Virus record (IMG/VR): IMGVR_UViG_3300025120_000499 | Span: 1-25,193 of that record | DNA: 25,193 nucleotides | DNA from: a virus | Strand: one strand, 5' to 3' | Shown: in pieces, positions 10,509-23,166 of the stretch | Numbering within the stretch: the stretch's first letter is position 1 | Layout: every line of letters starts with the position of its first letter | Program-made: the position numbers and the translations under genes | Notes under the pieces: generated by a model | What the model was told of the DNA's origin: nothing | Seen by the model: only the letters and a program-made list of their open reading frames with translations | Databases searched by the model: none

Positions 10509-12039
10509 ATTTGTTTCTCCCTGGAGGATCGATAATGTGTAAACTGTGCTTTGATCGTGTGATCCCCACGTACATACAACGGTGCTCATCGTCTGGGGTC
10601 TTTGTTGTTCTGATGTCACAGATCGGAGGCACCTTTGAAAACACTGCGCAGTTATCGTCCTCTCCTCCCTTCATACTGTGAAACGTAGAAAGTTTAATCC
10701 GAGGTGTTGAAGTCACATCCTCACCCCGACGAATAAGGGACTCTATGTACATCCGCTCGTCATCCCCGAATCTCGCAACTTCAAACGCATCGCGCTCTTT
10801 ATCTGCGACCATACCAAACTGCATAGCTAAATCATCCCATGTCAAAAACGCATCCGGTGCGGCTGCATCTAAAAGCCCTGCGGCCCCATGTTTTACGACA
10901 GCCAAATCCCCGCGCTTGCGCACATGTTTGTAAAAGTCACGGATCAATCCAAGTTCAACACCTTCACCCGCTTGCAGCTTGCGCCATGTGTTCATAGCAT
11001 TGGCAGACTTTTGATTTACGCTGCTATGCCCCTTGTAAGAGTACAAATATCCTTGGTCCCGCAGCGTATCGCCCCAACGACGAATGTATTTATTTGTTCT
11101 AGCCATTAAGGTCCATGAACCATTGTCCAAATCCAAATCGTCTGCGCTGTAATGCCAATCTACACGGCCCTCATCATCCGTTGGATGAAACAACTTTTCT
11201 TTGCGTAAACTAATCCGCTTTACAATCCTTTGTGACAGAAGGTGTACCTTTTCTGGCATTCGATAGCTTTGCGAAAGAACGCGGATATTGTCTGATGATT
11301 CAAGAAACTTCCGTATGTCCACACCTGTCCACCTATGGATCGCTTGATCGTCATCTCCTGCAATAAGTACACGCTCGGCATTCTTTGAGATCTTCGTTAT
11401 CATCGCCCATTGCAACGGGGTTAGGTCTTGGGCCTCGTCAATAATCAACATTTCAAGATACGGTGGCATACCGCAGTCTATGTATAGTTCAATCTGATCC
11501 ACGAAATCGATTTTATTTAACTTAGATTTATACAGCGCATACTCTTTTTGCACCCTGCGCAGGATGTTAAAGTCTTTGCTCCAATCTTCTGCCTCATTAA
11601 ACTCTTGCTCAATAGACACCATTCGATACCGCGCACGGTCAATCATACGCAGATACGTGTCTCCTGCTTCGAACTCGCTCTCCGGCGCTAACAACAACCC
11701 TTCATCGGGGTTGACCCTTGAAGCTCCTGAAAATTTCATTCCTACCTCACGGCCCAAAACGCCCCAATCTTCCGAGGACATCATGTCGGTAGAACTCGCG
11801 CCTATGCCATTGAACCCCCATGAGTGCAGTGTGCGAAACCATGGCAACTGCTTCTGGTCGATGCCAAATTGCCCACAGGCTCGTTCTATGGCCTCTTGGA
11901 TGGCCTTCTTGGTAAAAGACACATAACCTATGCGGTCAGGAGCAACGCCCCTTGCAAGGGCTGTCTCCACCTCTCTGATTAAAGTGTATGTTTTACCCGT
12001 TCCTGGCGGACCAAAAATTAATTCCGACTTAGGAATCAT
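10498..12039 (-). CDS. Superfamily 1 (UvrD/Rep-like) DNA helicase
   Basis: ATP-dependent DNA helicase of 513 residues with the SF1A motif set in order: Walker A GPPGTGKT (10-17), motif Ia YVSFTKKA (39-46), motif II IIDEAQD (199-205), motif III AGDDDQAIHRW (227-237), motif IV LSQSYRMP (255-262), motif V LSTFHSMKGGE (450-460) and motif VI RCMYVGITRSKHSLHI (487-502). It is shorter than UvrD (about 720 residues), so subdomains 1B/2B are reduced, as in many phage SF1 helicases. It overlaps the HTH gene upstream by 11 nt and the small gene downstream by 11 nt. The ribosome site is poor (GGGGG ten bases before ATG), consistent with translational coupling. No DnaB-type helicase is present in the window, so this may do replicative unwinding (inference). 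Confidence 0.95.
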   Translation of the reverse strand: MIPKSELIFGPPGTGKTYTLIREVETALARGVAPDRIGYVSFTKKAIQEAIERACGQFGIDQKQLPWFRTLHSWGFNGIGASSTDMMSSEDWGVLGREVGMKFSGASRVNPDEGLLLAPESEFEAGDTYLRMIDRARYRMVSIEQEFNEAEDWSKDFNILRRVQKEYALYKSKLNKIDFVDQIELYIDCGMPPYLEMLIIDEAQDLTPLQWAMITKISKNAERVLIAGDDDQAIHRWTGVDIRKFLESSDNIRVLSQSYRMPEKVHLLSQRIVKRISLRKEKLFHPTDDEGRVDWHYSADDLDLDNGSWTLMARTNKYIRRWGDTLRDQGYLYSYKGHSSVNQKSANAMNTWRKLQAGEGVELGLIRDFYKHVRKRGDLAVVKHGAAGLLDAAAPDAFLTWDDLAMQFGMVADKERDAFEVARFGDDERMYIESLIRRGEDVTSTPRIKLSTFHSMKGGEDDNCAVFSKVPPICDIRTTKTPDDEHRCMYVGITRSKHSLHIIDPPGRNKYEF

Positions 12040-12262
12040 TTTTCTGCACCCCCTTGGGCCGTCCTTTTAGCCAATCCAAAACGTCTGTCTTGTACCAACG
12101 AACCGCGCTGCGCTTGCCATCTTCCTGACCAAGTACCACAGGTTCAGGAAACTTGCCTTCATCAACCCATCGATAGATGGTTGCCCGTGAAATCGTTAGC
12201 ATCTCACACACCTCCTTTAGTTTCATCAACTGCGGATTGTTATCGTTAGAATGGGATGTCAT
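12029..12262 (-). CDS. AlpA/excisionase-like helix-turn-helix protein (77 aa)
   Basis: Small MerR-superfamily winged-helix DNA-binding protein. Residues 12-60 carry the typical pattern: MKLKEVCEMLTISRATIYRW, then VDEGKFPEPVVLG, then VRWYKTDVLDWLKGR. The same layout occurs in AlpA regulators and phage excisionases (established for the family). Start set at 12262, where AAGGAG lies seven bases upstream; this overlaps the primase stop by 17 nt. A longer frame six codons upstream lacks a ribosome site. With no integrase seen, a regulator is more likely than an excisionase, but that rests on a partial genome. Confidence 0.85.
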   Translation of the reverse strand: MTSHSNDNNPQLMKLKEVCEMLTISRATIYRWVDEGKFPEPVVLGQEDGKRSAVRWYKTDVLDWLKGRPKGVQKNDS

Positions 12263-13784
12263 ATTTATTCTCCTTAACATCTATTTCTACGTCTAAGTTT
12301 TCAAACTCAGGAACCCACCACACTCGTGTGTTCGATCTTTTACCATCGTCTTTCGTGTAGTTTAGTTTCCCATGGCACTCTTCGTTGCTGTTCAAACGTT
12401 GAATGTGCTCCTGTATCCGACCCGTAGTGAAGTCGGTGAAGTCATTGTTGCGTAGGAACTTTTCAAAAGAATCTATGCGAAACATGGTCTTGCCTCTGTC
12501 TGTCCAAGGTTTCCCAGACAGAACCTCTTCGGGTGTTACTGCTCGAATGTGGCTTGTGCAGAATTTGCGAAGCAGGTTTTCAAACTTCCCTGCCCGTGTA
12601 AGCTCTGGTGCCACCTCTTGTTTGGTTGAGGTACTTAACATACCATTGATTAACTGTTGCCAATCTCCCCGTGCTGGTACAGGCGGCATCATATCCAACT
12701 GTTCCATACAAGCTTTTTGCCAAAGCGTGGGGTTTTGTAATTGATCTGTTGAAAGCGTAAGTGACTTTCCCTCCACACTCATGAAGTACAAGCGCGGTTC
12801 CGATAGCATGATAGTAATACTCCCTATCTGAACCTGATCCTCGGAACTCGATCCGATGCCATACTTTTGCATCTTGCACTTTGACTTGTTACAATAGTCC
12901 TTGAGAGGACACATTGTGCATTGGTAAAAGTATCCGTCCTTTTTCTTTAAAGATCTTTGCTGATCGACAATTTCCTTCGACGGCAGAGGAGGCTCACATA
13001 GCTGTCGATTGTATTCCTCGTGGTGAGTTTCCCAATCATCAGGCCATTTGTTTTTACAATACACGCCCACGTTAAACATAAAAATGTTTCGGTTCTCTGT
13101 GATCTTGCCCATCGACGCAAGGATTTGTAGACAGATCGGTCCGTCTTCAAAATACTTTTGATCCCCGCTTAACTCGATCTCTTGTACCGAGGCCATCGAA
13201 ACTCGGTTCTTTTCCACAAAGTCTAAGAACTCCTCAACCTCCAACGCCTCCACCTTTTTATTATAAGCGTAGCGGGTGGGTGTTTCTGACATAAAATACG
13301 GAAGATTAATTCCGTTTCCAACCTCCCCGTCCTTATCATTGATTACCTCTTGAGCGGGAAATAGTTCTCCCGAACCGCTGAAACCCAACGCGGAACGCAT
13401 CTCAACCAATAGTTCCCGAACCATGGCACAAGATTCCCAATCCTTAAAAAAGAGATAGAGATGCGCCCCGCCTGACTTTGAGCGGCAGTGTACCAACGGC
13501 AACTTCAAACGTTGAATGTTTGCCTGTAAATCCTTGTGGTCAAGATCGTACACGTCGATATCGATCACCCCAAACTTACATACATTACCAGAAGAAATAG
13601 GGACAACTCCCACCCCACTTACGCCGTCCAAATGCAATTGCATAATGCTCTCGTCAATTTGTCCGTGAATCGTGCGATACTCGGCCTCAGTTTTACCTCT
13701 GTGACCTTTGCCCTTAACTCTAGTAACAAGATACCCAAGGTCTGATCCCTCAAACGCGGACATCATTCTTTTTGCTACTGACAT
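12246..13784 (-). CDS. Archaeo-eukaryotic-type (AEP) DNA primase, TOTE-like
   Basis: Primase of 512 residues that would start replication in place of DnaG. AEP motif I is GVIDIDVYD (D75, D77 bind metal), motif II is SKSGGAHLYLFF (S104, G105, G106, H108), and the ELFPAQ (140-145) and GNGINLPYF (157-164) stretches match the AEP type found in TOTE systems and many phages. Four cysteines (C289, C292, C298, C303; CxxC-x5-C-x4-C) form a likely metal-binding site before a C-terminal domain ending in a wH-like region. The last residues are KYDIPF, resembling the SSB C-terminal tip. GGGAG lies seven bases before ATG. A terminator hairpin sits just upstream of the gene. Confidence 0.9.
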   Translation of the reverse strand: MSVAKRMMSAFEGSDLGYLVTRVKGKGHRGKTEAEYRTIHGQIDESIMQLHLDGVSGVGVVPISSGNVCKFGVIDIDVYDLDHKDLQANIQRLKLPLVHCRSKSGGAHLYLFFKDWESCAMVRELLVEMRSALGFSGSGELFPAQEVINDKDGEVGNGINLPYFMSETPTRYAYNKKVEALEVEEFLDFVEKNRVSMASVQEIELSGDQKYFEDGPICLQILASMGKITENRNIFMFNVGVYCKNKWPDDWETHHEEYNRQLCEPPLPSKEIVDQQRSLKKKDGYFYQCTMCPLKDYCNKSKCKMQKYGIGSSSEDQVQIGSITIMLSEPRLYFMSVEGKSLTLSTDQLQNPTLWQKACMEQLDMMPPVPARGDWQQLINGMLSTSTKQEVAPELTRAGKFENLLRKFCTSHIRAVTPEEVLSGKPWTDRGKTMFRIDSFEKFLRNNDFTDFTTGRIQEHIQRLNSNEECHGKLNYTKDDGKRSNTRVWWVPEFENLDVEIDVKENKYDIPF

Positions 13785-22313: not shown

Positions 22314-22351
22314 AGGGGGATTTGCCCCCTCGTTAGTTTTTTTTTTTTTTT
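22314..22351. other. G5/C5 hairpin followed by a 15-T run
   Basis: AGGGGG (22314-22319) pairs with CCCCCT (22325-22330) around a 5-nt loop, and an unbroken run of 15 Ts follows at 22337-22351 after a 6-nt gap. The gap makes it a poor standard terminator on the + strand, and no + gene lies before it. It may insulate the early promoter or serve as an AT-rich melting region of the control region. Confidence 0.5.
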
Positions 22352-22366
22352 CTAAGTGAAAATCTT

Positions 22367-22482
22367 GTCCTCACCGTCCTCACCGTCCTCAACTCTCTTA
22401 CTTATTGTTTGTATACAAGGGTTTATACGGTGTTGGATTTGAGGACACGTTTTTATTTGAGGACAAGGTAGTGTCCTCAAAT
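22367..22482. repeat. Array of six GTCCTCA/TGAGGAC sites with 11-bp hairpin
   Basis: Three direct copies at 22367, 22376 and 22385 lie exactly 9 bp apart (GTCCTCACC, GTCCTCACC, GTCCTCAAC). Two inverted copies are at 22440-22446 and 22458-22464, 18 bp apart and both within ATTTGAGGACA. A sixth is at 22473-22479 in forward sense. The last two form a perfect 11-bp hairpin (22455-22465 / 22472-22482, loop AGGTAG). A central palindrome TTGTATACAA lies at 22409-22418. The layout resembles iterons of an origin, a pac/cos recognition region beside terS, or a multi-site operator. Confidence 0.8.
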
Positions 22483-22614: not shown

Positions 22615-23166
22615 ATGCCAATTATCAAAGCTGAGATTGAAGATAAGCACGACCGCATCCTAACCACTCGTCAAATGACTTTTGCTAAACATGTCGTCGA
22701 AGGCATATACAGCAATGCGGAGAGTGCCCGTAAAGCGGGATACAAAGCGGATCTTGCAGCGGAACACGCTTCCCGTTTGTTGAACGGGAAAAATTATCCA
22801 CATGTTGTGGAATATATTGAAGAACTCAGGGACGAACGAGAGCGCCGATACGGTGTAACCACAATCGGACAGCTTGAACGCTTGTTTCAACTATCCCGTG
22901 GGGCAGAGGAAGCGGGGATGTTTTCTGCGGCAATCAACGCAGAGAAAATACGGTCAGCACTGGGGGGTCTGACTATCGACAGGCGTGAAACCATCAACAC
23001 AATCGATCAATTATCTAGGGATGAAATCACATCTCGACTTGCGGCTTTGCAGAAACAGTATCCACAAGCGTTCCAAATAGAGACAAGTTATAAGGATATA
23101 ACACCAAATGAGCACGGGACCGGAGGCGAACTTCTGGAAGTCGATAAGGCGAAATCTGCCGAGTAA
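22615..23166 (+). CDS. terS: Terminase small subunit
   Basis: DNA-packaging recognition protein of 183 residues. Residues 16-60 are the N-terminal HTH typical of phage small terminases (LTTRQMTFAKHVVEGIYSNA, ESARKAGY, then HASRLLNG). A central helical oligomerisation region with RRYGVTTIGQLERLFQLSRG and AAINAEKIRSALGGL follows, then an acidic/variable tail. It binds viral DNA at pac/cos and works with the large subunit (family knowledge); the large subunit is not in the window. Start set at ATG 22615 with a weak GAGAAAG site; a TTG 12 codons earlier is unlikely. The GTCCTCA array lies 130 bp upstream. The C-terminal 59 nt overlap the nuclease gene. Confidence 0.9.
   Translation: MPIIKAEIEDKHDRILTTRQMTFAKHVVEGIYSNAESARKAGYKADLAAEHASRLLNGKNYPHVVEYIEELRDERERRYGVTTIGQLERLFQLSRGAEEAGMFSAAINAEKIRSALGGLTIDRRETINTIDQLSRDEITSRLAALQKQYPQAFQIETSYKDITPNEHGTGGELLEVDKAKSAE

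Follow-up and report, generated by a model that had tools for sequence, protein, structure and literature searches.

The window, the whole stretch of 25,193 nucleotides analysed here (IMG/VR virus record IMGVR_UViG_3300025120_000499), was read directly and contains six exact copies of the 7-mer GTCCTCA, or of its inverse TGAGGAC, within 113 bp beside the gene for the terminase small subunit (TerS). The features of this region are as follows, the sites being given from an exact 7-mer search.

22337..22351: 15-T run to the left of the array, with a putative role in strand opening
22367..22373, plus strand: array site 1, GTCCTCA
22376..22382, plus strand: array site 2, 9 bp past site 1
22385..22391, plus strand: array site 3, 9 bp past site 2
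22392..22439: spacer between the direct and the inverted copies, containing TTGTATACAA at 22409-22418; a candidate region for unwinding
22440..22446, minus strand: array site 4, inverted
22458..22464, minus strand: array site 5, inverted, 18 bp past site 4
22473..22479, plus strand: array site 6, which pairs with sites 4 and 5 as perfect inverted repeats
22615..23166, plus strand: terminase small subunit (TerS), marking the place of the array

An earlier note on this DNA had described the six 7-mers with their places, steps and strands, a closing hairpin and a 15-T run on the left, and all of these were recovered. The arms of the inverted repeats are perfect (22437-22448 with 22471-22482, and 22455-22465 with 22472-22482). 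The central palindrome of that note is present in the window as TTGTATACAA but is not general among relatives; the centre of the spacer in the loci that were printed out is GTATACA in L007 and L008, and AT-rich, e.g., TTATTTATATA, in several others. When the window was shuffled 200 times with its dinucleotides preserved, the densest 7-mer per 113 bp was present 2 times in 22 shuffles, 3 times in 177 and 4 times in one, compared to the 6 copies observed. Nor is the 7-mer just as dense elsewhere, as the earlier note had asked: 2 more copies of GTCCTCA were found across the remaining 25 kb of the window, and a search allowing one mismatch gave no extra site between 22330 and 22500. The direct repeats lie about one helical turn apart, as in iterons (9-bp steps in the window; often 9, 10, 18 or 20 bp in relatives), and they have an AT-rich neighbourhood, the 450 bp upstream of terS being 39% GC, versus 43-53% for 1-kb stretches of the window, and including the 15-T run. 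An 18-nt direct repeat, GCCCTGCGGCCCCACGCG, was also seen in the window at about 23474 and about 23519, at and just past the end of the VRR-NUC gene. Comparison of the window segment 21900-24900 with annotated phages by blastn gave no match.

A scan with the TerS of the window returned 213 relatives, and the best 80 of the 213 were analysed. Within 450 bp upstream of terS, 78 of these 80 loci carry one 7-mer in 4 to 11 copies; the two exceptions lie on shortened contigs (L044, with 171 bp upstream, has 3 copies, and L014, with 140 bp, has none). Each of the 80 upstream stretches was shuffled 50 times, and 84 of the 4000 shuffles reached at least 4 copies and one reached 5; the copy number observed was matched by some shuffle at 5 of the 80 loci. 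The commonest word beginning with GT, tallied per row with the window counted, was GTAAACA in 37, GTAATCA in 29, GTACTCA in 9, GTCCTCA in 2 and GTAAATC in 2, with L015 listed apart as a tie of GTAAACA and GTTTACA, and L014 uninformative. Among the best 80 TerS relatives just one, L003, had a GTCCTCA array; its TerS shares 99% identity with that of the window. The word of the window was seen in another lineage, a distant relative (L187) having 11 copies of GTCCTCA at 653-973. GTCCTCA matches in L084 and L085 were discarded as chance, there being only three tandem copies together in a coding-looking repeat with no other match to the window.

Many of the printed loci show direct copies, then an AT-rich spacer, then inverted copies; the exact copies in GTACTCA loci of the L004 type are all in one orientation, so that the inverted half is not universal. 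The manner in which the word changes is seen best by comparing L030 (GTAAACA) with L036 (GTAATCA), where 11 of 11 homologous sites carry the same single-base change and the rest of the word is unchanged. Elsewhere the two loci differ at 15 of 44 positions in the 3-base flanks of the sites, at 12 of the 179 remaining positions, and at 6 of 546 positions of terS. The earlier note had held that copies varying freely in related genomes would speak against its array; the word does vary between genomes, but within each genome the copies change in concert.

Of the three options that note had offered for the array, the evidence most favours an iteron-type origin. It contradicts a pac/cos site with TerS as its reader and lends no support to a multi-site operator for the XRE or AlpA-like protein. 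An array that abuts terS would suit a packaging function, with TerS binding it as pac or cosB. Sites of the pac and cos type often adjoin terS, and copies in 9-bp steps resemble the lambda R-site or pac arrays. However, three pairs of loci (L030/L036, L052/L054 and L015/L020) differ in word although the TerS proteins of each pair are identical, and TerS is therefore excluded as the reader of the word. The best TerS column, moreover, accounts for 0.91 of 1.40 bits for base 5 of the word, and we regard a packaging site as highly improbable. We give even less credence to an operator for either the XRE or the AlpA-like regulator, although the window does code for these two small helix-turn-helix proteins. 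The XRE gene was not found in 25 of 26 related records, many of which are fragments and some of which are long (57.9, 41.4, 36.8 and 36.0 kb), and in these records the repressor gene does not travel with the array. The AlpA-like gene was found in 11 of the 26 records, but the protein shows no change with the word: phages with GTAAACA, GTAATCA and GTAAATC share one and the same putative recognition-helix stretch (G021 was left out of this comparison), and its best column gives 0.67 of 1.43 bits for base 5.

The protein that was found to vary with the word is a primase encoded on the opposite strand from terS. Its features in the window are as follows.

12246..13784, minus strand: AEP-type primase of 512 aa, a candidate for reading the array and initiating replication (from homology and covariation)
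12309..12596, minus strand: primase C-terminal winged-helix domain, residues about 397-492 (from AlphaFold2 models and weak winged-helix matches)
12309..12374, minus strand: predicted beta-wing, residues 471-492, HGKLNYTKDDGKRSNTRVWWVP (from an AlphaFold2 model)
12330..12332, minus strand: codon for residue 485 (Asn), the best primase column for word base 3
12360..12362, minus strand: codon for residue 475 (Asn), matching word base 5
12366..12368, minus strand: codon for residue 473 (Lys), a partial match to word base 4

The catalytic domain belongs with the AEP superfamily by its match to Pfam AEP-TOTE PF22548 (4.1e-13, residues 39-166). The protein matched phrog_21866 (primase) at 9.1e-74, and the top Foldseek match for the model of the whole primase was a CAPP Prim-Pol domain at 1.8e-10. 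AlphaFold2 models of 53 natural primases had a mean pLDDT of 82, with 86-89 in the blocks at 471-490. The C-terminal end was predicted to form helices at 437-446 and 454-464, followed by strands at 471-477 and 483-492, and by these models residues 473, 475 and 485 would all sit on the beta-wing of a C-terminal winged helix. When the C-terminal domain model was submitted alone to Foldseek, no match was obtained at E ≤ 0.001. Its best VIA match, with a Z of 6.9 and an rmsd of 3.5 across 87 residues, was to TcpK in complex with oriT; the match is weak and heads a middling list, and a VIA Z under 8 may reflect a common fold alone.

Attention fell on the C-terminal end, or tail, of the primase when G017 (GTAATCA) was compared with the near-syntenic G018 (GTAAATC) and the primases were then aligned by word, whereupon this end stood out. 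The hypothesis of a word-reading primase wing was derived from the data, and the later comparisons extend it to more genomes. Loci for the residue test were taken from several primase scans and one genome scan; the IMG/VR primase scan gave at least 600 matches. The pooled set held 189 loci with a primase, complete in 182, and TerS was also present on 30 of the 189. The final set of 34 genomes comprised 26 of these 30 loci together with the window, L110, L123, L131, L172, L302, L309 and L312. Dropped from it were L106 (a near-copy, for which the window stands in), L111 (primase identical to that of L110) and the duplicate contigs L235 (same as L227), L243 (L233), L295 (L197) and L298 (L172). 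The four of the 30 loci missing from the set are L106, L187, L235 and L243. L187 was dropped from all counts, its primase being cut by the contig end before the wing; L182, another contig identical to it over residues 1-470, has Lys473, Asn475 and Gln485, which fits GTCCTCA. The 34 rows include near-duplicates and represent 26 distinct combinations of word plus wing.

The array finder took no primase input, but the primase tails were displayed beside its output and the procedure was not blind. The register of the TGACTCA arrays of L244 and L245 was set by eye, and the only clearly repeated word of L302 was YGTAAT. A search for TerS in primase records first without it found TerS in 0 of 36 viral records and in 2 of 3 MAG genomes, and these two MAG genomes yielded primase/array pairs on the same contigs (L309/L316 and L312/L315). 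The tails of L309 and L312 were known before their arrays, with no prior prediction of Arg for C, and these two do not constitute a blind test. Class-wide searches of 385 and 369 genomes gave as new primases only L337 and L338, both from a Maricaulis MAG, and L335 and L336, which are partial; all four were left out of the array pairing. A third TerS contig of the Maricaulis MAG (L317) has a GTTACA array at about 2123-2220, with no primase seen on that contig. The 36 primase-bearing viral contigs without TerS suggest that assemblies often break between primase and terS.

When 507 primase columns were scanned, word base 5 corresponded to residue 475 in 34 of 34 genomes, accounting for all 1.468 bits. 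T was paired with Asn in 17 genomes, A with Ala in 6 and with Ser in 5, and C with His in 4 and with Arg in 2. The next primase column for base 5, ranked by normalised score, carried 0.672 bits among the 34 genomes; the runner-up by raw bits, taken from an earlier scan of 32 genomes, gave 0.943 of 1.389 with nine residue types. These comparisons show that the array is kept in place, that its word is switched in concert, and that base 5 tracks a single residue of the wing. The match of base 3 to a second residue of the wing is less exclusive: residue 485 was its best primase column, with Thr facing A in 28 of 28 instances and Asn, Lys, Ile and Val occurring with C or T, Asn and Lys each pairing with both. 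For base 4, residue 473 was best by raw bits in the 32-genome scan (1.152 of 1.366), and in the 34 genomes gave 0.954 of 1.333 bits, where residue 393 came first by normalised score. In these 34, A was accompanied by His in 15 and C by Lys or Arg in 8, while Ser and Val showed mixed pairing. The pairing of base 4 with residue 473 is weak because of the mixed residues and because residue 393 is ahead by normalised score.

Closely related primases, defined as under 8% different outside residues 466-486, provided 20 pairs, and these are the most informative comparison. The wing differed in 8 of the 8 pairs with different words, at 5 to 10 positions, and in 0 of the 12 pairs with the same word. 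L233 and L244 differ at 7 of 489 positions outside the wing and at 7 of 18 inside; the corresponding values were 8 of 489 versus 8 of 18 for L227/L237, and 14 of 489 versus 5 of 18 for L237/L238.

The match of wing and word could in principle represent shared ancestry rather than contact, both drifting along the same tree. The near-duplicate rows would favour this, as would the fact that some columns in other proteins come near to or above the primase for bases 3 and 4. On a primase tree made without the wing, however, the three-base core of the word changes at least 14 times, and repeated switches could be counted. Independent pairs agreed for T with Asn in 7 of 7 (sign test p 0.016), for A with Ala or Ser in 5 of 5, and for C with His or Arg in 2 of 2; for base 3, A with Thr485 agreed in 5 of 5, and for base 4, C with Lys or Arg agreed in 3-4 of 5 with none opposed. 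Only T with Asn passes 0.05, the other pairings having too few independent pairs. Eight control proteins (PolA, UvrD, AlpA, gp34, gp33, SNF2, TerS and VRR) were compared over 24-34 genomes each. None of the eight had a column fully matching base 5, their maximum being 1.06 of 1.40-1.49 bits versus 1.47 of 1.47 for the primase. In raw bits the primase lead was thin at base 3 (0.72 of 0.83 with 5 residue types, versus 0.71 with 11 types for UvrD), and at base 4 the primase (0.96 of 1.33) fell below UvrD (1.05), SNF2 (1.03) and PolA (1.04 of 1.41; 7-11 types for these controls). A perfect column with no more than four residue types, the control criterion set beforehand, was found in none; primase residue 475 itself uses five. 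These eight proteins and the other columns of the primase share the same descent without matching base 5, and near-identical primases differ mainly in the wing. We consider that ancestry has almost no likelihood as the explanation. The case for the primase as reader rests upon the base 5 match, the close pairs, and the location of the best columns on one small structure.

We place at about three in four the probability that the array serves this tailed-phage family as an iteron-type origin of replication, putatively read by the C-terminal beta-wing of the primase. Iteron origins typically have arrays of this shape beside AT-rich DNA. The origin reading is supported because the putative reader is a primase, because of the array shape and its AT-rich neighbours, and because of the cumulative GC-skew minima. 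At 500-bp resolution the minimum fell at the array in 4 of 7 genomes (the window, G003, G004 and G008) and 3-5 kb away in G017, G018 and G019, with gene direction confounding both results. Binding of the beta-wing to the word sites would bring the primase, and presumably the replisome as well, to the origin, with several primases lining the array on one face. The wing would lie in the major groove and contact the complementary strand; we infer which base each residue touches from known preferences, namely Asn with A, His or Arg with G, and Ala or Ser with T. These preferences fit complementary-strand contacts, in that Asn would face A where the word has T, His or Arg would face G where it has C, and Ala or Ser would face T where it has A. 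The 15-T run and the AT-rich spacer may be the place of strand opening, where the primase would prime, and replication would start at the array.

An alternative use of the same wing is that the primase reads the array as an operator, repressing or timing the divergent early and terS promoters, with replication starting elsewhere. The array does lie between the leftward genes and terS, where promoters are expected. Against this, the primase is a replication protein, and tandem copies numbering up to 11 sites beside AT-rich DNA would seem to resemble an origin more. We hold the operator to be unlikely, and the iteron-type origin remains our preferred reading.

Co-evolution of initiators and iterons is already known from geminiviruses and from PLE satellites. 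In geminiviruses, as in the phages, short origin repeats keep their place while the word changes, and a core base tracks one Rep residue; strains of Euphorbia mosaic virus are reported to differ both at a base of the iteron core (GGNGTCC) and at one residue of Rep (PMC2974675), and the diversity of iterons suggests diversifying selection (PMC12548392). The geminivirus Rep is a rolling-circle protein of small ssDNA circles, unlike the AEP primase with its predicted winged-helix wing in dsDNA tailed phages. With an AEP primase as the covarying protein and no rolling-circle Rep in that role, a geminivirus-type Rep/iteron system was set aside. For PLE, PMC8263062 describes satellites that exchange the RepA_N domain together with the origin, the DNA-binding domain of the initiator covarying with the origin iterons, and origin changes that escape the ICP1 nuclease Odn. 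There a whole RepA_N domain is swapped along with three semi-palindromic iterons of about 30 bp, whereas the phage changes involve individual residues of the wing and as many as 11 sites of seven bases.

Two other systems bear upon the wing. TcpK, which acts at oriT of plasmid pCW3, is a winged helix whose beta-wing binds nine-nucleotide tandem repeats in the major groove, according to PMC6137059, and it resembles our proposal in its beta-wing reading of tandem repeats as well as being the best VIA match of the primase domain model. It is a conjugation accessory protein and not a primase, and the likeness is suggestive, an analogy rather than proof of kinship. The primase-polymerase of phage NrS-1 is likewise a phage AEP enzyme with specific motif recognition, the 8-base motif being one that may fix the replication start; in the available portion of the source (PMC8718748), motif binding is attributed to a helix-bundle domain, and no array or winged-helix wing is mentioned there. 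A literature search over titles and abstract openings, with few subscription papers, gave no account of the phage array or of a primase-wing code, and neither is described in the accessible part of PMC9599517 on HTVC023P-type phages. What appears to be new is an AEP primase wing as putative reader in dsDNA tailed phages.

The match of residue 475 with base 5 is the most valuable result, and the natural proteins allow bench testing. Near-identical primases differing mainly in the wing, with matching changes in the sites, form a natural series with which one may ask how an origin switches all of its sites together and survives, and under what pressure; the series also bears upon whether the wing reads by a simple residue-to-base code. 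A candidate origin and initiator are hereby proposed for a mostly uncultured group of phages that is common in IMG/VR. More tentatively, and with odds that we would set clearly below even, the wing may be a fast-switching reading head. Its small residue-to-base code, in which 475 would specify base 5, 485 probably base 3 and 473 perhaps base 4, would divide otherwise near-identical phages into replication compatibility groups. The pressure for repeated switching would come from antagonists, for instance satellites, co-infecting phages or nucleases directed at the origin, which exploit the origin or cut it.

Distant annotated phages were also scanned for arrays, MW202510 over its whole length and each of the others over 16-25 kb. 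MW202510 gave a single weak match only. Pelagibacter phage HTVC023P (MN698239, L321) has, at 11621-11764, 7 copies of another word, TAGGAA, in the gap upstream of terS. Phage 023Pt_psg01 (MW574966, L322) has 7 copies of GTGCCA at 13574-13783, in an intergenic gap about 600 bp from terS, and several of these copies are paired side by side. Alignment of the primase tails of these two phages was too poor for comparison of residues. CCGCAC in DSL-LC04 (low-complexity sequence) and a GCTTGA tandem in HTVC027P were rejected as looking like simple repeats. Separately from the arrays, 6 to 8 copies of GACCGCC within about 400 bp were seen in five of the loci: L131 (4072-4468), L151 (3922-4282), L228 (4360-4724), L231 (1008-1389) and L233 (3985-4292).
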